Shown: piece after piece, positions 513 to 13,618 of the stretch
Layout of the letters: each line of letters opens with the position of its first letter
How positions within the stretch are numbered: position 1 is the first letter of the stretch
Source: Gemmatimonas aurantiaca T-27
GTDB lineage: Bacteria; Gemmatimonadota; Gemmatimonadetes; Gemmatimonadales; Gemmatimonadaceae
Length of the DNA: 64,000 nt
Direction of reading: 5' to 3'
Assembly: GCF_000010305.1 (NCBI RefSeq)
Contig: NC_012489.1
Location: 558,001-622,000, forward strand
The notes under the pieces: generated by a model
What the model was told of the DNA's origin: nothing
Seen by the model: the letters and a program-made list of their open reading frames with translations, nothing else
The model's database searches: none
Position numbers and translations under genes: made by a program

Positions 513-1178
513 TCAGCCCACCATCGCACCCAATCCGCGCGGGCGCTGCAATTCGACCACGGTCACACTGAGATGGTCGACCGGAATGTCGAACATTTTC
601 GTGAACGGGATATCCCGTAGTGTGCACAACGCCGTGCGGATCCATCCGGCGTGCGACACCACGACCACCGTGTCGTGCGGCATCCCCCGAATCGAATCGA
701 ACACACCGTCCACGCGGGCGGCCAGTGCGGCCACGGTTTCTCCTCCCGGCGGCGCGTGCTGGGTCCACTGCGCCATCCATTCCCGCAGGGAAGCCCCTTC
801 GGTCATTTCGAGCTCGTGCCAGTTTCGCCCGTCCCACGCGCCAAAGTTCATTTCCCGGAGACGTGCATCGATCACCAGCGGGAGTGCAAATGCCGATGCG
901 ATCGCCGCTGCCGTGTCACGCGCGCGGAGCAGGTCGCTGCTCATCACGGTGATATCGAGTGGACTGCCATCGGGACTGCGCAGGGCATCGGCCAGCGGGC
1001 CGTCTGCTGTCACCAGCGTGGCGAGTGACTGACGGCCACGATCCGACAGTGGCAGATCGGTATGCCCGATGCAGCGACCGTCGGCGTGTGATGCCTCGGC
1101 ATGGCGCACCAGGATGAGGTGCACTGGACGCGACTCATCCTGGTCGACCGATTCGTCGGGGATCATCAGGAAAGCCAA
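513..1178 (-). CDS. cobC: alpha-ribazole phosphatase-type histidine phosphatase
   Basis: Histidine-phosphatase superfamily protein with the RHAEA signature near residue 26 (catalytic His) and the second-half VVVVSHAGWIR His motif. The length of about 217-221 residues is normal. As the last gene of the minus-strand cobalamin cluster it probably dephosphorylates alpha-ribazole phosphate or adenosylcobalamin 5'-phosphate. An in-frame ATG at 1166 overlaps the cobS stop as TGATG, which suggests translational coupling and may be the true start. The upstream ATG at 1178 gives four extra residues. A second phosphatase of the same family is fused to CobT upstream, so the two may be redundant or differ in substrate. 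Confidence 0.85.
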   Translation of the reverse strand: MAFLMIPDESVDQDESRPVHLILVRHAEASHADGRCIGHTDLPLSDRGRQSLATLVTADGPLADALRSPDGSPLDITVMSSDLLRARDTAAAIASAFALPLVIDARLREMNFGAWDGRNWHELEMTEGASLREWMAQWTQHAPPGGETVAALAARVDGVFDSIRGMPHDTVVVVSHAGWIRTALCTLRDIPFTKMFDIPVDHLSVTVVELQRPRGLGAMVG

Positions 1179-1972
1179 CCCCTCACAGGTGCAGCGGCGA
1201 GCATCAGATAGACACCTAGCTCCACAAGTTGATTCACGGCACCAAGGGCATCACCCGTGATGCCACCGATCCGCCGGCGGAAATAGCGTCCAGATGCCGC
1301 AGTGAGCAAGAGTGCAACGGCGACGGCGATCAATCCGGCGATACCCAGGCACACCACGGCCGTGATCACCGTCATCACCGTGGCCGTGAAAACCCGCCCC
1401 CGGTGTACGCCATCCACGAAGGGGCGACCCGCACTGGAGCGCTCACCCGGCGTCGCCGCCCGGACGTAGGGCAATACCCCAATGAGCCAGACACTGGCGC
1501 ATCGTCCAAGGGTGTGCGCAGCGAGCAGCGCCATCGGGGCGCGCGCCACACCAAGATCTGCCAGCAGGACACACTTCAGAACAACGGCCAGGATCATGCC
1601 CACGAGGGCGTACGATCCCACCCGGCTGTCCTTCATGATCGTCAGCACTTGCTCTGCCGTCCACCCGCCGCCGAATCCGTCCAGGGAATCGGCCAGTGCA
1701 TCTTCGTGAAAGGCTCCGGTGAGCCGCACGGTGGCGGCCGTGGAGAGCAGCGCGGCCACCAGCGGTGACCACCACTGGTGACCCAACAGGAACACGCCGG
1801 CACCGATCGCACCTACGACGATGCCCACCAGCGGAAACCACGCGGCCGATCGCGGCAGATCCGACAAGTCGTGCACGATCCACCGACCGGCCGGAATGCG
1901 GGTCATGAAGGTGAATGCGGCCGCCACGGCACGCCGTTCGGTGCCTAATGACCATCGGCTGGTGGCATTCAC
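1166..1972 (-). CDS. cobS: adenosylcobinamide-GDP ribazoletransferase (cobalamin synthase)
   Basis: A 268-residue multi-pass membrane protein. The N-terminal AFTFMTRIPAGRW segment, the FHEDALADSLDGFGGG acidic motif and the MKDSRVGSYALVG segment are diagnostic of CobS. It joins adenosylcobinamide-GDP and alpha-ribazole(-phosphate) in the inner membrane, the last joining step of nucleotide-loop assembly. The GTG start overlaps the stop of the upstream cobT fusion by 4 bases (GTGA), and its own stop overlaps the possible cobC start. All nucleotide-loop genes are therefore translationally coupled here. Confidence 0.95.
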   Translation of the reverse strand: MNATSRWSLGTERRAVAAAFTFMTRIPAGRWIVHDLSDLPRSAAWFPLVGIVVGAIGAGVFLLGHQWWSPLVAALLSTAATVRLTGAFHEDALADSLDGFGGGWTAEQVLTIMKDSRVGSYALVGMILAVVLKCVLLADLGVARAPMALLAAHTLGRCASVWLIGVLPYVRAATPGERSSAGRPFVDGVHRGRVFTATVMTVITAVVCLGIAGLIAVAVALLLTAASGRYFRRRIGGITGDALGAVNQLVELGVYLMLAAAPVRGWLS

Positions 1973-3693
1973 CGCCCGCTATCCTCGTGCGACGGTGCCT
2001 GTTCGCCAGCCGACACGCCGGCTTCCGCAAATGTGGCCATGTCGGACATGATTGCCGCCGCTGCCCGGAGCAGTGGTACCGTGAGGACCGCTCCCGATCC
2101 TTCTCCCAGGCGCATATCCAGTTCGAGCAACGGACGAAGGGCACGTCCGCTCAGGGCAGCAAGCGCTTCGATGGCAATGACGTGCCCTACTTCGGTGGAG
2201 CGGTGTGAAAGGAAAACACGACGGAGCAGTGTGCTGGAGCCCTCCGCACTTTCCTCGGCCATGTAGGCAGCGGCGAGTACGGAGACCGTGGAAATGAACC
2301 CGTCCACGAGCAACACCACCGGATGCCGGGAGGCTTCGAGTGTCGCACCGGCCATCGCCGCCAGCTCCAGTCCGCCGACACGACGCAGACACTCACGGGC
2401 GCTCTGCGCCGCGCGGCGGCTGCCGTGCAATGCGAGCGCGCGCGTCACCACATCGCGTTTGTGGGTGAGCGCCTCACCATGCACCCCCGTCCCCGCACCC
2501 ACGGTCAGTTCGGGGGCACGTCCGGTCAGCGCGGAGAGCAGCGCCGCCGCTGCGGTGGTGTTGCCGATCCCCATTTCGCCGAGGCCCACCACGTCCATGC
2601 CGGCGCGTACGGCGCGTCGCACGGCCGATGCCCCGACCTCCAGCGCCTGGGCCAGTTCGTCTTCGCTGAGCGCGGCCTCGCGCAGCATGTTGCGTGACCC
2701 GTGGCGTACCTTGGCGTGTCGCAGTGATGAAAGTGCCGACAGATCGGCATCCACACCCACGTCGATGACTTCGACATCGGTGTCGTTGGTGCGTGCGAGC
2801 ACGTTGATGGCGGCACCGCCACGCGCGAAGTTGCGCATCATCTCGGCGGTGACGGCACGGGGATAGGCGCTCACCCCTTCTTCCGCGATGCCGTGATCGG
2901 CGCCGAATACGCAGATACGCGCGTGGTCGATCCGCGGGGCGAGTGTCTGTTGCAGCAGCGCCAGACGTATGGCACAGGGTTCGAGCGCACCAAGGGCGCC
3001 GAGTGGTTTGGTCTTGCCGTCGATCGCCCGTTGTGCCGTGGTTTCCGTGACCGGCGGCTCGGCACGCACGGCCGCGTGGAATTGCAGCGTCTGCGCGTCG
3101 TCCACCGAGCAGGTTATCCACCAGGCATCGGCATTGGGCTGACGCAGGCTCCAGAAGTCGAGCGGCGACATCCCGAGTGCGTCGAGCAGCAGCACGCGGT
3201 TGAGGTGTCCATGCGCTGACACCAACACCGATTCTCCGGGGTGCTGGTGCACGATGCGACCGAGCGCCCGTAGCGCCCGCGTGCGCACTGCGGCCAGCGA
3301 CTCACCGTCCGGAAACTCCAGCGACCAGGGATCGGTGCGCCATTGGGCGTCGGCCCCTGGCGGCCAGTCGGTCGGTGTGGTGCCCTGCCAGCGACCGTAG
3401 GACAATTCCGCCAAATCGTCGTCTACGGTTGCCGGAGGGATCGCGTCGGGCAACAGCAATTCACTGGTGCGGACGGCCCGTGTGAGGGGCGAGGTGTACG
3501 CGACGGAGAGTGCATCGAGCGCACCCGACGCCACCAAACGCGACCGCAGGCGTTGCACCTGTGCCTCGCCTTGCGCGCTCATGGGCACATCGAGTCGCCC
3601 CTGACACTGGCCGCTGGCGTTGTGTGCCGTTTCACCATGGCGCACGAGCAGGATGCGGGTCATCGGGTGGAGCGTTGGCGCGGTGGGGCTCAC
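1969..3693 (-). CDS. cobT: fusion: CobC-like histidine phosphatase + CobT phosphoribosyltransferase
   Basis: One 574-residue frame joins two usually separate enzymes. Residues about 11-205 are a histidine phosphatase with LLVRHGET (His19) and a late VSAHGHLNRV motif. Residues about 225-565 are nicotinate-nucleotide-dimethylbenzimidazole phosphoribosyltransferase: ADHGIAEEGVSAYP, the GEMGIGNTT segment, and the C-terminal GEGSGAVL with the conserved Glu. The fused protein would make alpha-ribazole phosphate and could dephosphorylate it, feeding CobS. The GTG start overlaps the upstream adenosyltransferase stop (GTGA). An internal ATG at 3663 would still keep the whole phosphatase. No stop or frame disturbance is visible at the junction. 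Confidence 0.93.
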   Translation of the reverse strand: MSPTAPTLHPMTRILLVRHGETAHNASGQCQGRLDVPMSAQGEAQVQRLRSRLVASGALDALSVAYTSPLTRAVRTSELLLPDAIPPATVDDDLAELSYGRWQGTTPTDWPPGADAQWRTDPWSLEFPDGESLAAVRTRALRALGRIVHQHPGESVLVSAHGHLNRVLLLDALGMSPLDFWSLRQPNADAWWITCSVDDAQTLQFHAAVRAEPPVTETTAQRAIDGKTKPLGALGALEPCAIRLALLQQTLAPRIDHARICVFGADHGIAEEGVSAYPRAVTAEMMRNFARGGAAINVLARTNDTDVEVIDVGVDADLSALSSLRHAKVRHGSRNMLREAALSEDELAQALEVGASAVRRAVRAGMDVVGLGEMGIGNTTAAAALLSALTGRAPELTVGAGTGVHGEALTHKRDVVTRALALHGSRRAAQSARECLRRVGGLELAAMAGATLEASRHPVVLLVDGFISTVSVLAAAYMAEESAEGSSTLLRRVFLSHRSTEVGHVIAIEALAALSGRALRPLLELDMRLGEGSGAVLTVPLLRAAAAIMSDMATFAEAGVSAGEQAPSHEDSGR

Positions 3694-4229
3694 AGTTCGA
3701 TGCCGGGCTGTGCGGGGATGCCCTTCTCACGATAGGGGTGCTTCACGAGATGCATTTCCGTGACGAGATCGGCCAGTTCGATCAGGGCCGGCGATGCGTT
3801 GCGGCCCGTGACCACTACATGCATCCAGGGCGGTCGGTTGCGCAGCACATCCAGCACCATGGTTTCATCCAGCCAGCCGTAGGTAATGCAGTAGGTGAGT
3901 TCGTCGAGGATGAGAATGTCGAACTGCTCCGACTCGATCACGGCCTGCACACGCTGCCAGCCCTTTTCTGCCAGTGCCCGATCGGCTTCGATGTTGTCGG
4001 ACAGCCAGGTGAAGCCGTCGCCCAGTGGCACGATGTCGATGCCCAGTTCTTCGGCGGCGATGTGTTCCCCGTACCGCGTTTCCGCGCTCTTGATGAACTG
4101 GAACATGCCGATGGAGAACTTGTATCCGGCGGCGCGTACCAGGATGCCCAGCGCGGCGGTGGACTTGCCCTTTCCGTTGCCGGTGTTGACGAGCAGCAGT
4201 CCCTTTCGTGTGGCTCGATCGGTGCTCAT
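3690..4229 (-). CDS. cobO: cob(I)yrinic acid a,c-diamide adenosyltransferase, copy with canonical motifs
   Basis: 179 residues, the usual length of the CobA/CobO/BtuR family. An N-terminal P-loop variant (NTGNGKGKSTAALG) binds ATP. The GDGFTW segment matches the corrinoid-side motif of the family, followed by DILILDELTY and VVVTGRNA. It transfers 5'-deoxyadenosyl from ATP to Co(I) corrinoids. The ATG overlaps the stop of the upstream paralogue (ATGA) and its stop overlaps the cobT fusion start. It is the second of two tandem paralogues and the one closer to characterised enzymes. Confidence 0.93.
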   Translation of the reverse strand: MSTDRATRKGLLLVNTGNGKGKSTAALGILVRAAGYKFSIGMFQFIKSAETRYGEHIAAEELGIDIVPLGDGFTWLSDNIEADRALAEKGWQRVQAVIESEQFDILILDELTYCITYGWLDETMVLDVLRNRPPWMHVVVTGRNASPALIELADLVTEMHLVKHPYREKGIPAQPGIEL

Positions 4230-4948
4230 ACGTCGATGCCTCCCTGAGCCTTGATGCCTTGGTCTCGCAACGGATGTTTGATGACACGCATGTCGGTCAC
4301 CAGGTCGGCTGCGTCAATCATGGCCTGCGAAGCATCGCGGCCGGTGACGACGACGTGTGTGCCCTGCGGGCGTTCTTGCAGGGTGCGGATCACTTCCGTT
4401 TCATCGAGCCAGCCCCACTTGAGCGGCAGGGTGAGCTCGTCGAGCACCAGCACGTCGTACGTGCCTTCGGTGATGTGACGGGCGCACAGCTCCCAGCCGG
4501 CGATCGCGCGATTCTTGTCTTCCGTGAGGTCCCGATCTTCCTTGCGGCGCTTGCCGGTGCAGCCGCCGCCCAGTGCCATGGCTTCGATACCCAGCACCCG
4601 TGCGGTGCGATGTTCACCGGTGTTGCCGAGACGCTTCACGAACTGGTACATGGCGGTGCTCATGTCACGGCCATACGCGCGCAGCATGACACCGAGCGCC
4701 GCGGTGGTCTTTCCCTTGCCGTGTCCGGTGTTCACGATGAGCAAACCATGGCGGTCCTTGCGCGGCGGGACCCGATAGGCGCCCGGACGTTTCTGTTTGG
4801 GCGTTGGCACCTTGCGTCCGTTGGCCGCCACGGCGGTCTTTGGCGCTGCGAGCGGATCGACGCGCGGTTCGAGTTCGTCGTCGAGCAGTTCTACGCGTGG
4901 TTCGAGGTCGTCTTCGAAGTCGTCGGGCAGCAGGTCAGGATGCGTCAT
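4226..4948 (-). CDS. second corrinoid adenosyltransferase paralogue with acidic N-terminal extension
   Basis: A 240-residue CobA/CobO-family protein when started at ATG 4948. A longer frame to 5086 would run deep into the upstream gene and encodes unrelated sequence, so the shorter start is preferred; it still overlaps that gene by 14 bases. Residues about 1-65 are an acidic then Lys/Pro-rich extension. The catalytic part has the P-loop (NTGHGKGKTTAALG), LVLDELTLPL and VVVTGRDA. The corrinoid-side motif is altered: GGGCTGKRRKED stands where the family has GEGFTW. ATP binding should be intact. Corrinoid specificity may have changed, or the protein may act with or regulate its neighbour. Confidence 0.85.
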   Translation of the reverse strand: MTHPDLLPDDFEDDLEPRVELLDDELEPRVDPLAAPKTAVAANGRKVPTPKQKRPGAYRVPPRKDRHGLLIVNTGHGKGKTTAALGVMLRAYGRDMSTAMYQFVKRLGNTGEHRTARVLGIEAMALGGGCTGKRRKEDRDLTEDKNRAIAGWELCARHITEGTYDVLVLDELTLPLKWGWLDETEVIRTLQERPQGTHVVVTGRDASQAMIDAADLVTDMRVIKHPLRDQGIKAQGGIDV

Positions 4949-6017
4949 GGGTCGACCGGGAGAGAGTGGAGCGAAACCGGGCAAGCGCCTCGATGAGGCG
5001 ATCGTTGTCTTCAGTATGTCGGGCGGCCACGCGCACATGCGTCGGCAGACCGAAGGAGGTGCCATCCCGCACGAGCAGCGCGGCATGGTCGATCAGCCAC
5101 GTGCGCGCGTGCGCCGCGTTCTGACATTCAACGAGGAAGTAGTGTGTGTCGCTGGCGAGAACGGAGAATCCGATTCCTTGAAGGGCCGTTCTCATGCGAA
5201 CGGCTTCGTGGCGCAGCAGCTCCGTCGTGACCCGTGCATGGGCTTCCGCTTCATCAGAAAGCGCTGCGATAACCGCTGCTTGAGCCGCACCGGACGCGGC
5301 CCACGGGATGCGCACTGCTTCCAGCGCGCGAACAACCTCTGGAGATGCTACGCCCAGAGCGACCCGCACATTGGCCAGTGCGTGGTCTTTGGTGAGTGAA
5401 CGCAGGTGCAGCACATGCGAGTGACCCGGCAATGCGGGTGTGCCGTGTGGTGCCGCGGTAAATCCGTCATACGCCTGATCGAGTACCAGCAGTGCGTCGA
5501 CGGCTCTGCAGGCATCAGCGATGAGCTGCAGGGTGTGCAAAGATTCCTGCTGTCCGATGGGACTCGATGGGGAAGCGAGAAAGACCAGCTTCGGGCGGTC
5601 TGCAATGCGCCGCACCAGATCGTCGGTGGTCAGGGCCGTCTGGACCTGCGCTCCGCACAACTGCGCAGCTCGCGCATACTCGCCGAAACATGGTGCCATC
5701 ACGAGAACGCCATCTCCTGGTTCCACGTACGCGAAACAGACCGCCTGAATGAGCTCTGCGGAGCCGGCGCCCAGAATCAGCTCATCGATCGGGCGATGCC
5801 ACCGCGCGGCGGCGATGGCGCGGGCGTCGTGACTAGTGGGGTCGGGATACTCATCAACGGCACAATCGCGGATGGCGGCACGTACCACCGGTGCAGGCCC
5901 ATGCGCATTCAGGCAAACGCTGAAATCGATCACGTGCCGTGCGTCGTGGTGCAAGGCGGCGCGTCCACCGTGGACCGTAGCGGCAACCTGCAGGACGTGC
6001 GAGCGAGCGCGAGGCAT
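4935..6017 (-). CDS. threonine-phosphate decarboxylase-like PLP enzyme (CobD family)
   Basis: Fold-type I PLP enzyme of about 360 residues. It shows the N-terminal SVCLNAHGPAP substrate segment, LILGAGSAELIQ, the Asp of LVLDQAYDGF, and the PLP lysine in LTKDHALANVRVALG. The position between cbiB and the adenosyltransferases indicates the CobD role: L-threonine phosphate to (R)-1-amino-2-propanol phosphate, the arm that CbiB attaches. The family is very close to HisC, so histidinol-phosphate aminotransferase cannot be excluded from sequence alone. ATG 6017 was chosen because it lies 15 bases after the cbiB stop; the open frame to 6383 lies inside cbiB and encodes Arg-rich nonsense. Confidence 0.83.
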   Translation of the reverse strand: MPRARSHVLQVAATVHGGRAALHHDARHVIDFSVCLNAHGPAPVVRAAIRDCAVDEYPDPTSHDARAIAAARWHRPIDELILGAGSAELIQAVCFAYVEPGDGVLVMAPCFGEYARAAQLCGAQVQTALTTDDLVRRIADRPKLVFLASPSSPIGQQESLHTLQLIADACRAVDALLVLDQAYDGFTAAPHGTPALPGHSHVLHLRSLTKDHALANVRVALGVASPEVVRALEAVRIPWAASGAAQAAVIAALSDEAEAHARVTTELLRHEAVRMRTALQGIGFSVLASDTHYFLVECQNAAHARTWLIDHAALLVRDGTSFGLPTHVRVAARHTEDNDRLIEALARFRSTLSRSTHDAS

Positions 6018-6031
6018 ATCGATGACGCTCC

Positions 6032-7024
6032 TCAGGCCGAAACAGGGATGGAAAGCTCCACGCACATCACGGCGGCGAGCGATGCGGCGAACACCATGCG
6101 CCGGGCGCGCGTGATGTCGTGGGCGGTGGGAGCACGTCCTTCGGCGTTCAACACATACAGTCCGCGCTTTTCGAGTCGTATGCCGAGGGCGCCGGCCATG
6201 GTTGCCATCGGCCATCCCCCGTTGGGGCTTGGTGTGCGGGATGCGTCGCGGATACCACAACGCAGTGCCTTCCAGGGGGAAGCCATCGCACAAGGCGCCG
6301 CCAGTGCGAGCAGCGGTGCGCTCACCCGTGCCGGGAGCAGGTTCAACACGTCGTCCGAGCGCGCTGCAGATTTGCCAAACCACTCCAGCTCCGGCGTGCG
6401 ATAGCCCAGCATCGCGTCGGCGGTGTTCACAAAGCGATAGGCATACGCCGCCGGTAAACCGCCCAACCGGTACGCCATCAATGGGCCCACCACGCTGTCG
6501 CTCAGGTTCTCGGCCAACGACGCGATGGCCGCACCGGCCACCTCGTCTGCGGAGAGTGCGTCGGTGTTGCGCGAAACCAGATGCCAGGACAACAGGTGTC
6601 TGGCCTGATCAAGGTCATGCCGTTCGAGTGCGACTCGCACGACATCGGCCGCGCGCAGCAACGAACGCACGGCCAGTGCCGGCTTGAGCAGCACACCTTC
6701 CACTGAAATGCGTCCCAATGTGGAGGGCAGTGTCGAGGCACCGGCCGTTGAGGCGTTTCCGAGTTGCGCGATGATCGCGGCTACGGCGCCGGCGATTGCT
6801 GTCGTGAGTGCGACACCGCCGGCGAGGCCTGCCGCCCCATGCCAGAACGCCTGGCGCGAGCTGTGGCCAGGCATCATGGATCGGGATTTTTGTGAGGCCC
6901 GGATGCGGCCGAGCCACCGGCCCATCCACACCGTCGGGTGTAGTTGGTCCGGTGGCTCGCCGAAGCCGAGGTCTGCGAGAAGCGCTGCGGTAGCCGCTCC
7001 TCGCACGGCGCCGGTGCCGATCAC
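6032..7024 (-). CDS. cbiB: adenosylcobinamide-phosphate synthase
   Basis: A 330-residue CbiB/CobD membrane protein. It has DLGFGEPPDQLHPTVWMG at the N-terminus and AENLSDSVVGPL, RFVNTADAMLGYR and DDVLNLLPARVSA in the middle, all conserved family segments. Several hydrophobic helices place it in the inner membrane. It couples adenosylcobyric acid to aminopropanol (phosphate). The GTG start at 7024 directly abuts the TGA of the upstream lipoprotein gene (7025), so the two are very likely co-translated. This ties the uptake half of the operon to the synthesis half. Confidence 0.94.
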   Translation of the reverse strand: MIGTGAVRGAATAALLADLGFGEPPDQLHPTVWMGRWLGRIRASQKSRSMMPGHSSRQAFWHGAAGLAGGVALTTAIAGAVAAIIAQLGNASTAGASTLPSTLGRISVEGVLLKPALAVRSLLRAADVVRVALERHDLDQARHLLSWHLVSRNTDALSADEVAGAAIASLAENLSDSVVGPLMAYRLGGLPAAYAYRFVNTADAMLGYRTPELEWFGKSAARSDDVLNLLPARVSAPLLALAAPCAMASPWKALRCGIRDASRTPSPNGGWPMATMAGALGIRLEKRGLYVLNAEGRAPTAHDITRARRMVFAASLAAVMCVELSIPVSA

Positions 7025-8140
7025 TCAGAACGTGCGGATGGCAAGGCTCATGGGGCCCGCGCCCACGGAGATGCTGTCCCGCAGTGCGAACGTGGTCGCG
7101 TCATACACAAACGCGTACGGTGCCAGCCCCTGCGACGTGCTGCCGAAGAACAACTGGTACAGGCGGCCCGTCGTGGCGGCGGCTGACGACGAGGCACCAC
7201 GGCAGGCGTTGTTGCTGGCGCGCTTGGCGCACACCGGATCTGCCGGGCCACGCACGAACGCGCGGGTGCGCGTGTTCCACACCAGTGTCGCGTTGGAGAA
7301 GCTCGAGATGTATGCGAGACCATTGGCGTCGATCGAGATGTGGCCGGGGCCGACACCCATGTTGGGGATCAGGGCCACGCGCGTCATCGTGGCCGGATCG
7401 ATGATGGCCATGCTGCCCTGCGCCACATAGTCGCCGGTGTTCAACACGTACAGCAGGCCGTCCGGACCAATCGTCGCTTCGTTCGGGTTCGTACCACCCG
7501 TCTGCACGGTGCCGAGTACCGCCATGGTGGCCGGGTTGATCGCGGTGACCACACCTTCGCCGATCGGTACGAAGTTGGCGAGGTTGCCCGAGATCGCGAG
7601 CACACGGCCGGCGGAGTAGGCCATCGCCGTCGGCGCGGGTGCGACATCCACCGTGCTGGTGATTTCGGTGGCCGTCTGGTTCACATAGAAGCGGCCGATC
7701 TTGTTGGTGTTGGTATTGGCCGCGAACACGGTGGTGTCATTGGCCCACACCGAGCCGGTGGCATTGCCACTCGGGAAGGTGAAGAAGCGTCCGACCGTGG
7801 CCGTCTCCAGATTCACGAGCGCGACGCTGGCCGCATTGCCGAGAGGTACCGCCGCACGGCGACCACGCAGCGAGAAACCGATGGGGGTGACCGTGGTGCT
7901 CGAGCCGAGCGGGATCTGCACGGTGGTGGTGGGCGAACCGAGCTGGAACATCGTGATCGACTTGGTGCCCGAATTGATCACGACACCGATCTCACGGTTG
8001 CCGGCGACACCACCCAGGAAACCCGGCGCCGGTGTGGGCTCGGACGGGCCATCCTCACCACACGCCGCGGTGAGAGCCAGCAATGCCATCGCCGCAACGC
8101 GGCGTGACGACAACAGATGACGAACGGTCAGGAGGCGCAT
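7025..8140 (-). CDS. beta-propeller (YVTN-like) lipoprotein, candidate BtuG-type surface cobalamin binder
   Basis: About 371 residues when started at ATG 8140 (MRLLTVRHLL), giving a lipoprotein signal with lipobox LTAAC and Cys27. The rest is a run of roughly 40-residue beta-propeller repeats of YVTN/YncE style, for example AINPATMAVLGTVQTGG and AIIDPATMTRVALIPN. It sits 16 bases after the btuB-like gene and abuts cbiB. Known family context: Bacteroides BtuG is a surface-exposed propeller lipoprotein that captures B12 and hands it to BtuB. By position and architecture this protein is inferred to do the same; no cobalamin-binding residues can be read directly. Alternative: a generic YncE-like protein. 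Confidence 0.72.
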   Translation of the reverse strand: MRLLTVRHLLSSRRVAAMALLALTAACGEDGPSEPTPAPGFLGGVAGNREIGVVINSGTKSITMFQLGSPTTTVQIPLGSSTTVTPIGFSLRGRRAAVPLGNAASVALVNLETATVGRFFTFPSGNATGSVWANDTTVFAANTNTNKIGRFYVNQTATEITSTVDVAPAPTAMAYSAGRVLAISGNLANFVPIGEGVVTAINPATMAVLGTVQTGGTNPNEATIGPDGLLYVLNTGDYVAQGSMAIIDPATMTRVALIPNMGVGPGHISIDANGLAYISSFSNATLVWNTRTRAFVRGPADPVCAKRASNNACRGASSSAAATTGRLYQLFFGSTSQGLAPYAFVYDATTFALRDSISVGAGPMSLAIRTF

Positions 8141-8156
8141 CGAAGGGATCGGAAAG

Positions 8157-10346
8157 TCAGTGCGTGGGAGAAGAAACACGACGCACGCGGAGCGAGACGC
8201 TCCACAAGCGCGTGGGGAAGGGGTAGTCCACCAGCATCGCGGCGTCGCGATTGAAGAGATTCTCGACGGTCAGCATGGGCGAGAACGTCCAGCCGCTCCG
8301 GGTCGTCGAGGTGGAAAGCCGCACATCGGTCATGCGGTAGGGCGCGAGCGCATTGAGCGTGGAGCCCGGTGCCACACGGCGGGTGCCGACATGGCGTGTG
8401 ATCACGTCGGCACGTGCTGCACCGGCGGTGATCGACGACTGCAGGGAGGCCGTGACCTGCGGGCGATACACGATCTGACCGGTGAGCACACCACCGGCGT
8501 ACGTCACATCGGTGTGATCGAGTGTGCCCTGAAATTCGAGGTGGGCCGCGGGAATACGCAGCGCACTGCGGGTCTCCCAGCCACGGCGGCGCACATCGTA
8601 GTTGTTCGGGCTCCAGATGAATCGGAAATCGGGGAACCACAGGATCATGCCATCGACGTCGGCGCGAAACGCCGCCGCTTCGGCAACCCATCGCAGTGGA
8701 CCTACCGACACTTCCCGGAGGCTCACACGCGCTTCCATGTCATGTTTCGTGCGCTCAGGACGCAACGACGGATTGGCGCGCACCTGCACACCTTCATGGA
8801 AGAACTGATCGGCGATAGTGGGCGGCGCAAAGCCAGCCCCGTACGACACACTGAGCGCTGCGACACCACGTTCCGCGCGCACCATCACGCGCGGCGATAC
8901 GGCCATATCGGTGAGCAGCGAACTGTGATCCAACCGCAACGCAAAGTCGGACAGTAGTCGCGTGGGTCGTGATGCCCGTCCGAGTGCACGCTCGGCACGC
9001 GCATTGAACCAGGCACCGGCCAGTGTTTGTCCACTCGGCGCATTGGCCGCGAGGTTGTTGCTGGCCAACTCGAGATGCCGTATGTCGATGCCGGCCGATG
9101 TGGTCATGAGAGGCCATGCCGCAGTCGCGGACGACGTGACCGTCAGGCCATTGGCCGTGACCGTGTCGGCAAACGGCTGCCCAAATGGCGGCGTCGGATC
9201 GTTGTATGTGCCACGCTCACGGGTCACATCGGCAGCCGACGCGATCACCCACCGTGAGGGGCTCCACTGTGCGGTGAGTCCGCCACTCAGGCGCGAAAAT
9301 TGTTGACGCCCCGACTGGGAGGGCTGGATGATCGTGCCGGCCATGCCGCGATCGGTGTTGCCGTACGTGCCGCGCACGGTGTACTGCTGCTGCCCGATAT
9401 CCAGACCAGCGCTGCCCACCACCTGGGTGGTGGCGGCATCGGCATTGAGCCGATCGGCACGGCCGCCGCCGCGCACGGCCGGTACGGGATACGAGAAATC
9501 ACCACGCACCGAGCGATGATCCACGCCCAGCGACACGGACCGCGTACCGCTGGCTCGCGGTACAGACGTACCCAAGGTACCAGCCACACCCCATTCGCCG
9601 AGCGCGCCACCGCGCACAAGCGCTGAACGTTCATGTCGCGAACGACGGGTGACGATTTCGATCACGCCCGCCATGGCGCGCGGACCATAGCGGGCCGACT
9701 GTGCGCCCGTGAGCACGGTGACGCGTTCGATGTTCTCGAGCGGAATGGCCGAGAGGTCGGCCGAGCCGGAGATGGCCGAATTGAGCGGCACGCCATCGAG
9801 CAGGATGAGCACCTGGTTCGACGAGGAGCCGCGTATGGACACCCGTGCCGGCTGACCCGGTCCACCAGATCGTGTGACCACCACACCCGGTGTGGTCTGC
9901 AGCAGGTCGCCAAGGTCGCGCTGACCGGATGCTTCTATCGTGGCCCGTGTGAACGTCGTGGCATTTGGCGCGACGGAATCGCGTTGCGCTTCGACTACCA
10001 TGCGCTCCAACACGGGTGCCATGGGGCGCAGTGTGACATCGAGCTGCGTGACGCGTGCGTTCTGCACACTCGCATCGAGCGCGCGTTCGATGAAACCCAG
10101 GGCACGCACACGGACCACATACACCCGTGGCTCGAGACTGCGCACGAGGTAGGTGCCGTCGGCATTGGTACGGGCGCTGGTGCTCACGCCTTCCAGTTCG
10201 ATGCGCGCATCGGCCACCGGGCGTCCGGTGCCTTCTTCGGTGACTCGCCCACGGACTTCACCAGCCACCTGGGCACGCAGTGCCTTCACGGGAGCCAGAG
10301 CGGCGATTGCGACGACGCAGAGTGTCCCAACGAGTCGCTGCCTCAT
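8157..10346 (-). CDS. btuB: TonB-dependent cobalamin/corrinoid outer-membrane receptor (BtuB-like)
   Basis: About 729 residues from ATG 10346, which overlaps the upstream ATPase stop as ATGA; the open frame to 10430 is upstream coding sequence. A signal peptide ending near LRAQ is followed by a carboxypeptidase-regulatory-like beta-sandwich (GEVRGRVTEEGTGRPVADARI). Next come the plug (GDLLQTTPGVVV, GQPARVSIRGSSSNQVLILLDG) and a long beta-barrel ending in an aromatic-rich strand. The extra N-terminal domain is common in Bacteroidota-like receptors and absent from E. coli BtuB. Substrate assignment rests on the riboswitch and on btuCDF and cob neighbours. Confidence 0.88.
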   Translation of the reverse strand: MRQRLVGTLCVVAIAALAPVKALRAQVAGEVRGRVTEEGTGRPVADARIELEGVSTSARTNADGTYLVRSLEPRVYVVRVRALGFIERALDASVQNARVTQLDVTLRPMAPVLERMVVEAQRDSVAPNATTFTRATIEASGQRDLGDLLQTTPGVVVTRSGGPGQPARVSIRGSSSNQVLILLDGVPLNSAISGSADLSAIPLENIERVTVLTGAQSARYGPRAMAGVIEIVTRRSRHERSALVRGGALGEWGVAGTLGTSVPRASGTRSVSLGVDHRSVRGDFSYPVPAVRGGGRADRLNADAATTQVVGSAGLDIGQQQYTVRGTYGNTDRGMAGTIIQPSQSGRQQFSRLSGGLTAQWSPSRWVIASAADVTRERGTYNDPTPPFGQPFADTVTANGLTVTSSATAAWPLMTTSAGIDIRHLELASNNLAANAPSGQTLAGAWFNARAERALGRASRPTRLLSDFALRLDHSSLLTDMAVSPRVMVRAERGVAALSVSYGAGFAPPTIADQFFHEGVQVRANPSLRPERTKHDMEARVSLREVSVGPLRWVAEAAAFRADVDGMILWFPDFRFIWSPNNYDVRRRGWETRSALRIPAAHLEFQGTLDHTDVTYAGGVLTGQIVYRPQVTASLQSSITAGAARADVITRHVGTRRVAPGSTLNALAPYRMTDVRLSTSTTRSGWTFSPMLTVENLFNRDAAMLVDYPFPTRLWSVSLRVRRVSSPTH

Positions 10347-11158
10347 GCCGCACCGCCCAAACTGGCCGAAGCGCCCTGTGGCACGACCTGCGGTGCACCA
10401 TCGCGGTGCCACTCGATATCCACGGGCCATTCGTACACTTCGGCCACACGCTCAGCGGTCAACACCTCGGCCGCCGTGCCTGTGGCAACGATGGCCCCGT
10501 CGCGCAACAGCACCATGCGGTCGGCATAACGCGCGGCGAGGTTCAGATTGTGGGTCACCAGCACCACCGTCACACCATCCTCGCGCAGTCGACGCACCTG
10601 CTCGAACATGGCCATCTCGTGACGGATGTCGAGGTACGTGGTCGGTTCGTCGAGCACGATCACGCGGGTTTCCTGCGCCAGGGCACGCGCCACGCGCACG
10701 CGCTGACGTTCACCGCCGGAGAGCGTAGGTACCCAACGCGTCGCAAATTGCTGCACGTCACATTGCTGCATGGCGCGATCGATGGCCTGCACGTCTTCCT
10801 CACGCTCACGCTGCCACGCACCGAGATGGGCATACCGACCCATGGCCACCGTGTCACGCACCGTGAAGAGCGGTTCCACTTCTCCTTGCGGCACCACGCC
10901 GATCTCCCGGGCGAGCCGCTGCCGCGGCCATGCGCGCATCTCTTCACCACGGAAACGCACCTGGCCCTGCCCGGGACGCTCCACGCCCAGCAGCAACTGC
11001 ATCAGCGTGCTCTTGCCGGCGCCGTTGGGGCCGATGATCACGGTGAGCAACCCGCTGTCGATGGTCAGCGTGATGTCGCGCAGCGTGGGCTGCGTCGCAC
11101 CATGGTGGCGGAAGTGCACGTCGGTGAGCACCCACTCGGGGGCGGAGGCTGCGCGCAT
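10343..11158 (-). CDS. btuD: cobalamin ABC importer, ATP-binding subunit
   Basis: About 271 residues from ATG 11158 (TGATG overlap with the permease stop). A longer open frame exists but lies inside the permease gene. Walker A is GPNGAGKST, the Q-loop is VVPQGEVEP, the signature is LSGGERQRVRVARAL, Walker B is VIVLDEPTTYLD, and the H-loop is VLVTHN. It belongs to the FecE/BtuD family that powers import of metal chelates and B12. The partners are the permease and binding protein immediately upstream and the receptor downstream, all in one overlapping operon. Confidence 0.93.
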   Translation of the reverse strand: MRAASAPEWVLTDVHFRHHGATQPTLRDITLTIDSGLLTVIIGPNGAGKSTLMQLLLGVERPGQGQVRFRGEEMRAWPRQRLAREIGVVPQGEVEPLFTVRDTVAMGRYAHLGAWQREREEDVQAIDRAMQQCDVQQFATRWVPTLSGGERQRVRVARALAQETRVIVLDEPTTYLDIRHEMAMFEQVRRLREDGVTVVLVTHNLNLAARYADRMVLLRDGAIVATGTAAEVLTAERVAEVYEWPVDIEWHRDGAPQVVPQGASASLGGAA

Positions 11159-12165
11159 CACAGCACACGCTGGCTCGAGGGACGCCGCAACAACCACACA
11201 AAACACGGCACACCCACCAGCGCCGTCACCACGCCAATCGGTAACTCGTTGGCTCCAGCCACCGTGCGCGCGGCTGTGTCGGCCGCGACGAGAAACACGG
11301 CACCTGCCAATGCCGCCGTGGGCAGCAGACCTTGATTGTCGCCACCCCACAACAAACGCAAGGCATGCGGTACCACGAGGCCGACAAAGCCGATCGTGCC
11401 GCTCATCGCGACCGATACTGCCGTGAGCAGTGTGGCGGTGGCAAACGCGATCCACTTCACGCGCTCCACTTCTGCGCCCAGATAGGCCGCCGTGGACTCA
11501 CCGATTGCGAGCAAGTTGAGTGAGCGGGCCAACCACAGCAGCACCAGAAACGCCGGGAACACGGTCACCGCCAGCACCGACACCGAGCGCCATGACGCAC
11601 CCGAATGACTGCCCATCATCCAATAGATAGCGGTGCGCACCGACTGATCATCGGCGAACGTCAGCACCAACCAGATGCAGGCCACCAGAAACGATCCCAC
11701 CACCACGCCCGCCAGCAACAGCACGCGCGTATCGAGACGCTGGCCAACGGAGTACGCGATGCGAAACACCAGGAACATCGCCAGCAGCGCGCCCACAAAC
11801 GCCGCCGTGGGCAGCGCCCAGATGTAGCGCAGCGAATAGCCGCCCACGACACTGAGCACGGCGCCAAACGCGGCGCCACTCGACACACCCAGCACATACG
11901 GCTCGGCCAGTGGATTGCGTAGCAGCGCCTGATAGGTCGTACCACTCAACGCCAGTGCCGCACCCACCAAGGCGGCCTGAAACGCCCGCGGCAAGCGCAG
12001 CTCGTGCAGGATGTTCACGTACGTCGGGTCCCCTTCGCCCAACACGGCCTGAATCACCTGCGCGCTCGTGAGCTGGACGGCGCCGAGACGCAGGGCCAGC
12101 AGAAGCGTGAAGGCCAGCAGGGCCGCCAGCAGCGGAATGCGCCAGGCGAGGGAAGACAACCGCAT
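11158..12165 (-). CDS. btuC: cobalamin ABC importer, FecCD-family permease
   Basis: 335 residues with about nine to ten hydrophobic helices typical of the FecCD/BtuC family. Conserved segments include LRLPRAFQAALVGAALALSGTTYQALLRNPLAEPYVLG near the N-terminus and SGTIGFVGLVVPHALR toward the C-terminus, the region that contacts the ATPase. It forms the inner-membrane channel for B12. The start ATG at 12165 overlaps the binding-protein stop as TGATG, and its stop overlaps the btuD start in the same way, so stoichiometric expression is likely. Confidence 0.93.
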   Translation of the reverse strand: MRLSSLAWRIPLLAALLAFTLLLALRLGAVQLTSAQVIQAVLGEGDPTYVNILHELRLPRAFQAALVGAALALSGTTYQALLRNPLAEPYVLGVSSGAAFGAVLSVVGGYSLRYIWALPTAAFVGALLAMFLVFRIAYSVGQRLDTRVLLLAGVVVGSFLVACIWLVLTFADDQSVRTAIYWMMGSHSGASWRSVSVLAVTVFPAFLVLLWLARSLNLLAIGESTAAYLGAEVERVKWIAFATATLLTAVSVAMSGTIGFVGLVVPHALRLLWGGDNQGLLPTAALAGAVFLVAADTAARTVAGANELPIGVVTALVGVPCFVWLLRRPSSQRVL

Positions 12166-13262
12166 CAGTTCTTCACCGCCGAATCACGCGATGGCGCTCG
12201 GTCGGGAATGGAATCCGGTTCCGCCACCGGCGACGGGAATTGCGGATGCATCGCACTGCGCAGCACTTCGGCCGCGAGCCCGATGTTGGGGCTCGGACGG
12301 CTGAGCAGGTCGGCCGGTACGGCCACTACACGTCCTTCGCGGATGGCCCGCAGGTTGCGCCACCCCTGCATGACCTTGAGGCGCGAAAGGGCCTGGGCCT
12401 TGAACTCCCCTACCGGCACCACCACCACATCCGGGTCGCGACGCACGATTTCTTCCATCGTGACGTTCGGCCAGTTCGTGGCGGCGTCGTCGAAAATCGA
12501 ACGGCCGCCGGCGAGCGTGATCAGTTGCCCGATGAAGGTCTTTGGTCCTGCGGTCATCGGTGGATCGTTGAACACGACGTACATGACCGTCGGCACCTTG
12601 AGCGTCTGCACAGAACTGCGCACGGCTTCGAGTTGTGCACGCAGTGCGGTGGACACACGCTGCGCATCAGGGGTGTGACCAGTCAGCGCGCCGAGATTGG
12701 CGAGGCCGCGGAACACATCGGTGGTGTCCTGCGTGCGCAGCATGAAGATCGGGATGCCCAGCGCGGTGAGCCGCTCGCGGAATTGCTGGCGTTTGTCGGA
12801 TTCCCACGACACCACCAGCTCCGGCTTGAGCGAAACGATCATCTCGATGCTCGGATCGACACTGCCGCCAACCAGTGGCAGGTGCTGCACCTCCGGCGCC
12901 ACGTCGTAGCGCGTGCGCGCGATCAACTGTTCCGCGGCACCGAGCGCCAGTAGCGTTTCGGTGGCACTGGGAATGAGCGAAACCACCCGACGGGCCGGTT
13001 GTGCCAGCGTGACGGTACGGCCCGCATCATCGATCACCGTGACCGGTGCGGTGCTCGCGGCGGAGATCGCCGTTGAATCAGCAGCCGCGGCCGCGGCCTG
13101 TTGCGCGGTCTTGTCGCAGGCGACCAGCACGCATGCCGCACAGCCCATGGCCATAATGCCACGCCAGGTTGCACGAACGCGCAGAGATGTGTCGGAGCGC
13201 CTGCCTGAAAACACAAAACCCGTCCAGTCTCGGTGATCGAGAGGGACGGGGGCGGCAGACAT
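12165..13262 (-). CDS. btuF: cobalamin ABC importer, substrate-binding lipoprotein
   Basis: A type III periplasmic binding protein of the BtuF/FepB family: RRVVSLIPSATETLLALGA near the start of the mature domain and a later helical backbone region. The lipobox LVAC suggests a lipoprotein. The start is uncertain. ATG 13262 gives 365 residues with a long N-terminus; GTG 13214 would place a basic segment before the hydrophobic stretch and make a more normal signal; ATG 13154 leaves a very short one. It is the first gene after the cobalamin riboswitch and delivers B12 or cobinamide to the permease. Confidence 0.88.
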   Translation of the reverse strand: MSAAPVPLDHRDWTGFVFSGRRSDTSLRVRATWRGIMAMGCAACVLVACDKTAQQAAAAAADSTAISAASTAPVTVIDDAGRTVTLAQPARRVVSLIPSATETLLALGAAEQLIARTRYDVAPEVQHLPLVGGSVDPSIEMIVSLKPELVVSWESDKRQQFRERLTALGIPIFMLRTQDTTDVFRGLANLGALTGHTPDAQRVSTALRAQLEAVRSSVQTLKVPTVMYVVFNDPPMTAGPKTFIGQLITLAGGRSIFDDAATNWPNVTMEEIVRRDPDVVVVPVGEFKAQALSRLKVMQGWRNLRAIREGRVVAVPADLLSRPSPNIGLAAEVLRSAMHPQFPSPVAEPDSIPDRAPSRDSAVKN

Positions 13263-13334
13263 CTATCGACGCACAATAAGGTGCATCAGACCGACGCGGA
13301 CGGCCCCGCAGTCCTCCCTCGAGGATTTGCAGCG

Positions 13335-13512
13335 GGAACGAACGGCCGGTTTCCTGGCTCGAGGCGGTCGGCTTCTCCCTTCCCGGTGCATGCACCAGTG
13401 GGTGTTGCGCAGAAGTCGCTGCTAGCTGTCGTGTCCAAAGACACGGCAGAGCCTCATACAGTGGCGGGGCCGCGCCGGCATTGCACCGGCTTCCAACAAA
13501 GGCCCGTTCGTG
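13335..13512 (-). promoter_or_regulatory. cobalamin (AdoCbl-type) riboswitch
   Basis: Read on the minus strand, the region opens with GGAAGCCGGTGCAATGCCGG. It then has the B12 box GCCACTG (revcomp at 13459-13465), and later AGCCAGGAAACC (revcomp at 13348-13359) with flanking pairing segments. Order and spacing match the conserved core of cobalamin riboswitches. It lies about 70 bases before the longest btuF start and points toward the minus-strand uptake/salvage genes. By family knowledge B12 binding turns expression down. The expression platform would lie in 13263-13334; no obvious T-tract terminator is seen there, so translational control is more likely. Confidence 0.93.
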
Positions 13513-13618
13513 ACGATCGATTGTGAACTACTGAGATGTGCACGTTAGCGGCATCCCGATTCGGAACGCAAGCCCGTGGCATCTTGCGCGGTGGGTGACC
13601 ACCGAAGATGCTGCGGGC

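Follow-up and report, generated by a model that had tools for sequence, protein, structure and literature searches.

The stretch of DNA analyzed here (hereafter the window) covers 64,000 nucleotides of the one-contig, 4,636,964 bp genome of Gemmatimonas aurantiaca T-27, a member of the Gemmatimonadota in the FCB group, in which the Bacteroidota are also placed. A first-pass annotation made from the sequence alone had judged that the host does not look like a Bacteroides, and its closest relatives among the genomes compared are indeed Gemmatimonadaceae records. The minus strand of the window carries an operon in the order riboswitch, btuF, btuC, btuD, btuB, propeller lipoprotein, and cbiB, followed by cob genes that Pfam identifies, in order, as a cobC-type aminotransferase, two cobA/btuR adenosyltransferases, a phosphatase-cobT fusion, cobS, and a phosphatase (Table 1). 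The spacing described by the first-pass annotation is exact, i.e., the 16-base gap between the receptor stop and the lipoprotein ATG occupies positions 8141-8156, and cbiB begins with its GTG at 7024, the very next base after the stop codon of the lipoprotein. The cobalamin riboswitch under which the receptor, the lipoprotein, and cbiB had been placed is also genuine (RF00174, 63.7 bits), but it heads the whole operon before btuF, btuC, and btuD rather than btuB directly. The likely ATG of btuB is at 10346, and a further in-frame ATG lies upstream at 10430.

Table 1. Features of the cobalamin operon, given as positions in the window.
Feature	Positions	Strand	Basis and remarks
Cobalamin riboswitch, operon head	13327..13536	-	RF00174, 63.7 bits vs gathering score 31.5
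btuF, corrinoid-binding protein	12165..13262	-	Pfam Peripla_BP_2; own lipobox LVAC
btuC permease	11158..12165	-	Pfam FecCD
btuD ATPase	10343..11455	-	Pfam ABC_tran; true start probably downstream of 11455
btuB, TonB-dependent B12 receptor	8157..10346	-	Pfam/NCBIfam, PDB sequences, AF2 and Foldseek
btuB domains: N-terminal CarboxypepD_reg, plug, 22-strand barrel	8157..10346	-	
Receptor extracellular loop 8 (LWFPDFRFIWSPN), residues 569-581	8604..8642	-	Candidate B12-ejecting, lid-contacting loop
Propeller lipoprotein, BtuG-like	7025..8140	-	371 aa; ATG 8140, stop 7027-7025; ORF and lipobox, AF2, Foldseek
Lipobox cysteine C27	8060..8062	-	Direct reading; conserved in homologues
C304..C313-R-G-A loop, blades 6/7, top face	7193..7231	-	Invariant in 13/13 aligned sequences; position by DSSP
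cbiB/cobD, first downstream corrinoid-salvage gene	6032..7024	-	Pfam CobD_Cbib, 259 bits; GTG start at 7024
Remaining salvage block (aminotransferase through phosphatase)	513..6383	-	Pfam

Within the salvage block, a histidine phosphatase of the alpha-ribazole phosphatase type and CobT (DBI_PRT) are fused in one ORF (1969-3693, minus strand), and two CobA/BtuR-type adenosyltransferase genes stand side by side (3690-5086, minus strand), a tandem also found in loci L021 and L032; L022 has a single gene. The lipobox of BtuF (12165-13262, minus strand) reads LVACDKT, which makes a membrane anchor probable for the substrate-binding protein of this operon. A divergent cobQ/cbiP ORF begins on the plus strand at 13538, two bases from the riboswitch end, and its real start may be further in. 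The only other cobalamin riboswitch that we found in this genome (L129, G000:C1:2076857-2077070, 125 bits) precedes a gene for the 977-aa large chain of a ribonucleotide reductase, presumably of the B12-dependent class. Cultured Gemmatimonadota reportedly require B12 to grow, and neither aerobic nor anaerobic corrin synthesis genes were found in the surveyed genomes (PMC10581226), in keeping with a scavenging system.

The gene between btuB and cbiB had been annotated as encoding a beta-propeller lipoprotein, and both halves of that description hold. The lipobox LTAAC is read from the sequence as L-T-A-A-C27 within a signal peptide, and most homologues also have a lipobox, recognized in each case from sequence only. 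The cysteine is followed by the acidic sequence GEDGPSEP, and a like pattern was seen in none of 18 background lipoproteins from sampled stretches of the same genome. This acidic sequence, together with two SusD-like lipoprotein genes in the genome, makes export to the surface plausible, short of proof. The AF2 model, built from 13 homologues, is a beta-propeller (pLDDT 90.1, pTM 0.85) whose predicted strands fit seven blades, the C-terminal strand closing blade 1, with the assignment of blades being our own. The loop with the Cys-Cys-RGA pattern is a signature of the near homologues. In the near tier of the family the top face is significantly conserved (p 0.005); in the far tier it is not, so we rest no argument on this. 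We looked in the charges of the top loops for a negative ligand face like that of BtuG and did not find one; counted from the residues rather than taken from an electrostatic map, the net charge of these ligand-side loops is +1 in the window protein, and the family means are -3.8 for the top loops versus -5.3 for the bottom loops.

For the comparison with BtuG, the PDB was probed with BtuG fragments, and sequences were then read from PDB alignments and plasmid records. When the propeller model was searched with Foldseek, an archaeal YVTN propeller took rank 1, and BtuG structures took ranks 2-15 and 17, with TM by query of about 0.66-0.70 and sequence identity of 11-13%. VIA-align did not single out BtuG, as many propellers scored equally well (1L0Q, Z 33.8; nitrous oxide reductases, about 32; BtuG, about 28-31). 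Because other seven-bladed propellers tie with BtuG in VIA-align, we describe the modeled fold as BtuG-like, not BtuG-specific. The first-pass annotation had proposed structure prediction and comparison with BtuG as a check, and a fold unlike BtuG is not what was obtained.

The best Pfam match of the propeller sequence is DUF5074, the BtuG family, at a sub-threshold 20 bits against a cut-off of 27.2, whereas BtuG2 itself scores 67 bits. Searches of the PDB sequences by phmmer and hmmsearch did not reach the BtuG chains, and a BtuG profile run across 200 genomes of the phylum did not find the window protein. When profiles were aligned by hhalign to a BtuG set comprising B. theta BtuG2 and BtuG3 and two Persicobacter sequences, the probability was 78-86 with E about 1e-5, and for the two broader profiles the alignment ran collinearly along most of the chain, a match that repeat-type propellers alone could give. 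The BtuG2 pocket residues W194, W272, Y316, and Y335 have no matching conserved aromatics in this alignment, which is uncertain at 13% identity. Because a sequence relationship of the kind we take to define membership was not found, we do not assign the propeller to the BtuG family.

Set beside BtuG (B. theta BtuG1-3; 3DSM, 8BMY, 8OKV, 8BLW; DUF5074), the window protein is likewise a seven-bladed propeller lipoprotein whose gene adjoins btuB in a riboswitch-controlled B12 locus and whose partner receptor has a similar loop 8. In contrast, it belongs to another phylum, shares just the 11-13% identity and sub-threshold DUF5074 match given above, goes unfound by BtuG profiles, does not retain the negative face or, by the uncertain alignment, the pocket aromatics, and has the conserved Cys-Cys-RGA loop between blades 6 and 7. 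The gene order here, btuB and then the lipoprotein, is that of Persicobacter, whereas in the B. finegoldii locus the lipoprotein comes before btuB.

The gene upstream encodes a BtuB-type receptor, as had been annotated. Its AF2 model (pLDDT 77.7) has a plug and 22 strands, and the top 15 Foldseek matches are all BtuB, beginning with B. theta BtuB3 and BtuB1 from BtuBG complexes and then E. coli BtuB. By sequence search, E. coli BtuB is the best PDB match, and the NCBIfam TonB-B12 model matches with E 1e-37, below the cut-off. The BtuB proteins of the B. theta BtuBG complexes (8P97, 8BLW, 8BMX) are thus the best structural matches and have a loop 8 of the WxP type; the receptor here differs from B. 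theta BtuBs in its 16-18% identity and in its N-terminal CarboxypepD_reg domain. The receptor profile aligned to B. theta BtuB1 over its full length (positions 141-732), and its matches to BtuB2 and BtuB3 fall chiefly in the second half of each. The plug and early barrel of E. coli BtuB (1NQE) are clearly homologous to those of the receptor here, but the profile match extends only to position 576, where loop 8 begins, and E. coli has no lid lipoprotein.

Loop 8, so numbered from the strand count in the AF2 model, ranks first among the extracellular loops of the receptor both in conservation (0.89 in the receptor alignment) and in aromatic content (38%), with the motif WxPDFRFxWSPxN. The corresponding loops of receptors that neighbor BtuG read IIWLPTTKGFFSPRN in B. 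finegoldii and IIWQPGVFNLWRPEN in Persicobacter, and all three share a W-x-P...P-x-N frame (IIWxP...[FW]xPxN). Loop 8 of the B. theta receptor sits inside the pocket of BtuG and shifts to expel B12, and growth on B12 depends on it (PMC10404256). Judged by its motif, then, the receptor in the window carries a loop 8 of the BtuG-partner type, a point that the first-pass annotation had not raised and that we regard as the strongest of the new evidence.

A DNA pattern for loop 8 found 57 sites in 395 genomes, and a reversed control gave 0 matches. The propeller gene lies directly downstream on the same strand at 54 of these 57 sites, which places the association of receptor and propeller far from chance. 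Two of the other three sites are at contig ends, and one is in a truncated receptor without a propeller (L150, G136:C1:1254414), possibly a decaying locus. The loop-8 motif was absent from the other receptors sampled in this genome and from split-locus receptors, as well as from two propeller-adjacent receptors in one family of the phylum, f2 (L096 and L099). No relative of the C-terminal half of the receptor was found in plasmids, nor any relative of the propeller in the viral contigs or plasmids searched.

The propeller profile matches 119 of 395 Gemmatimonadota genomes (E <= 1e-5), the weakest of which may be matches to generic propellers, and family members occur in eight families of the phylum. 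We read 33 loci, i.e., 13 near loci including the window and 20 distant loci hand-picked down the ranking; all 33 are btu loci, and a TonB-dependent receptor is encoded directly upstream of the propeller in 29. Homologues found mainly away from btuB had been named in advance as an outcome that would speak against the BtuG comparison, and in this survey of related genomes they sit with btuB. The gaps from receptor to propeller start are mostly -4 to about +60, often with a 4-base overlap of start and stop. In a sample of 99 genomes of the family, the receptor (E <= 1e-50) and a full-length propeller were found together in eight, and in no genome did one appear without the other. A cobalamin riboswitch was found in 8 of the 10 distant loci scanned, L087 and L094 being without one. 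In four of the 20 distant loci, all from family f2 (L094, L097, L098, and L100), the propeller follows btuFCD with no receptor adjacent; beyond it lies selB, joined in two cases by a clp gene, and in three of these genomes a second riboswitch precedes a receptor gene located elsewhere. A second, diverged propeller gene stands in tandem behind the first in L038, L083, and L084. Homologues in L082 (3844-6204) and L039 (4635-5999) have a PKD/Ig-like domain between the lipid anchor and the propeller, and a group with larger spacing between loop 8 and the propeller suggests that such a spacer is common in two families.

We propose, with a probability of roughly 0.75, that the propeller serves the adjacent BtuB as its dedicated lipoprotein partner in the outer membrane and acts as BtuG does in Bacteroides, probably catching B12 at the cell surface and handing it to the receptor. 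The first-pass annotation had suggested such a counterpart outside Bacteroides; the fold, the btuB-linked homologues, and the loop 8 of BtuG-partner type support it, with corrinoid binding as a prediction. The lipid-anchored propeller would be exposed at the surface, sit over the mouth of the receptor, and capture corrinoids there. The lid would then close, and loop 8 would push into the propeller pocket, displacing the corrinoid into the receptor, from which BtuB with TonB, then BtuF and BtuCD, would import it. The downstream cob genes would remodel or salvage the imported corrinoid, and the riboswitch would turn the operon off when cobalamin is sufficient.

The same protein could instead face the periplasm, tethered either to the inner leaflet of the outer membrane or to the inner membrane, where it would take B12 after BtuB and buffer it or pass it to BtuF. 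The family-f2 propellers that directly follow btuFCD without a receptor gene would suit this arrangement, and no signal for lipoprotein surface export has been defined for this phylum. Nevertheless, we consider a periplasmic position unlikely, as it is the conserved motif of an extracellular loop that tracks with the propeller, the post-cysteine CGEDG sets the protein apart from the 18 background lipoproteins, a PKD/Ig-like spacer separates anchor from propeller in some homologues, and periplasmic binding is already supplied by BtuF. It is far less probable still that the protein is just a generic propeller of the cell envelope, carried along with the operon and playing no part in the uptake of B12. 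Proteins with this fold are widespread, and the fold by itself is silent on the ligand, but the coupling to btu genes holds across the phylum, with members in eight families, and reaches 54 of 57 for the loop-8 receptors; on these grounds, chance and hitchhiking were both rejected.

Ancestry is a separate matter, and an answer to it is compatible with BtuG-like function. We give somewhat less than even odds to a generic YVTN-type propeller having been recruited independently as a lid, which would make the protein an analogue rather than a divergent orthologue of BtuG. The best match in both Foldseek and VIA-align is the archaeal YVTN propeller rather than BtuG, neither phmmer/hmmsearch nor the BtuG profile gave a sequence signal to BtuG, pocket and charge differ from those of BtuG, and XusB lids, which belong to another Pfam family, show that propellers have been re-used on receptors (PMC13142918). 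Common descent is favored by the collinear but weak profile-profile match (probability 78-86, E about 1e-5), by the best Pfam match being the BtuG family, although sub-threshold, by the loop-8 pattern common to the receptors of both phyla, and by the place of Gemmatimonadota and Bacteroidota together in the FCB group.

Among other known systems, XusB/XusA (9GBC) is similar in that a seven-bladed propeller lipoprotein forms a lid on a TonB-dependent receptor; it differs in belonging to DUF4374, in binding siderophores, and in being from Bacteroidota. BtuH and BtuJ (DUF4465) are B12-binding surface lipoproteins of btu loci but, unlike the protein here, are not propellers. Published accounts limit BtuG to Bacteroidetes (PMC6143338) and regard lipoprotein-capped receptors as seemingly confined to the same phylum (PMC10404256). 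In the literature searched, which was limited to papers available without subscription, we found no report of a Gemmatimonadota counterpart.

The best reading of the locus is a BtuG-like B12 lid outside the Bacteroidota, one whose pocket differs and whose binding face is not negatively charged. We also lean, with somewhat less assurance than for its function, towards lidded B12 receptors not being an invention of the Bacteroidota, with the Gemmatimonadota having an unrecognized lid family that has its own pocket and goes with a receptor whose loop-8 ejector is common to the Bacteroidota as well. If this is true, the lid strategy would either go back to the ancestor of the FCB group or have evolved on two occasions around the same receptor. 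A second, sequence-distant lid would then be available for asking which features, among loop 8, pocket, and charge, the hand-off of B12 needs. A phylum-wide counterpart in the Gemmatimonadota, which live in soils, fresh waters, and sediments, would remove the exclusivity of the Bacteroidota and weaken a gut-specific explanation for lidded receptors.
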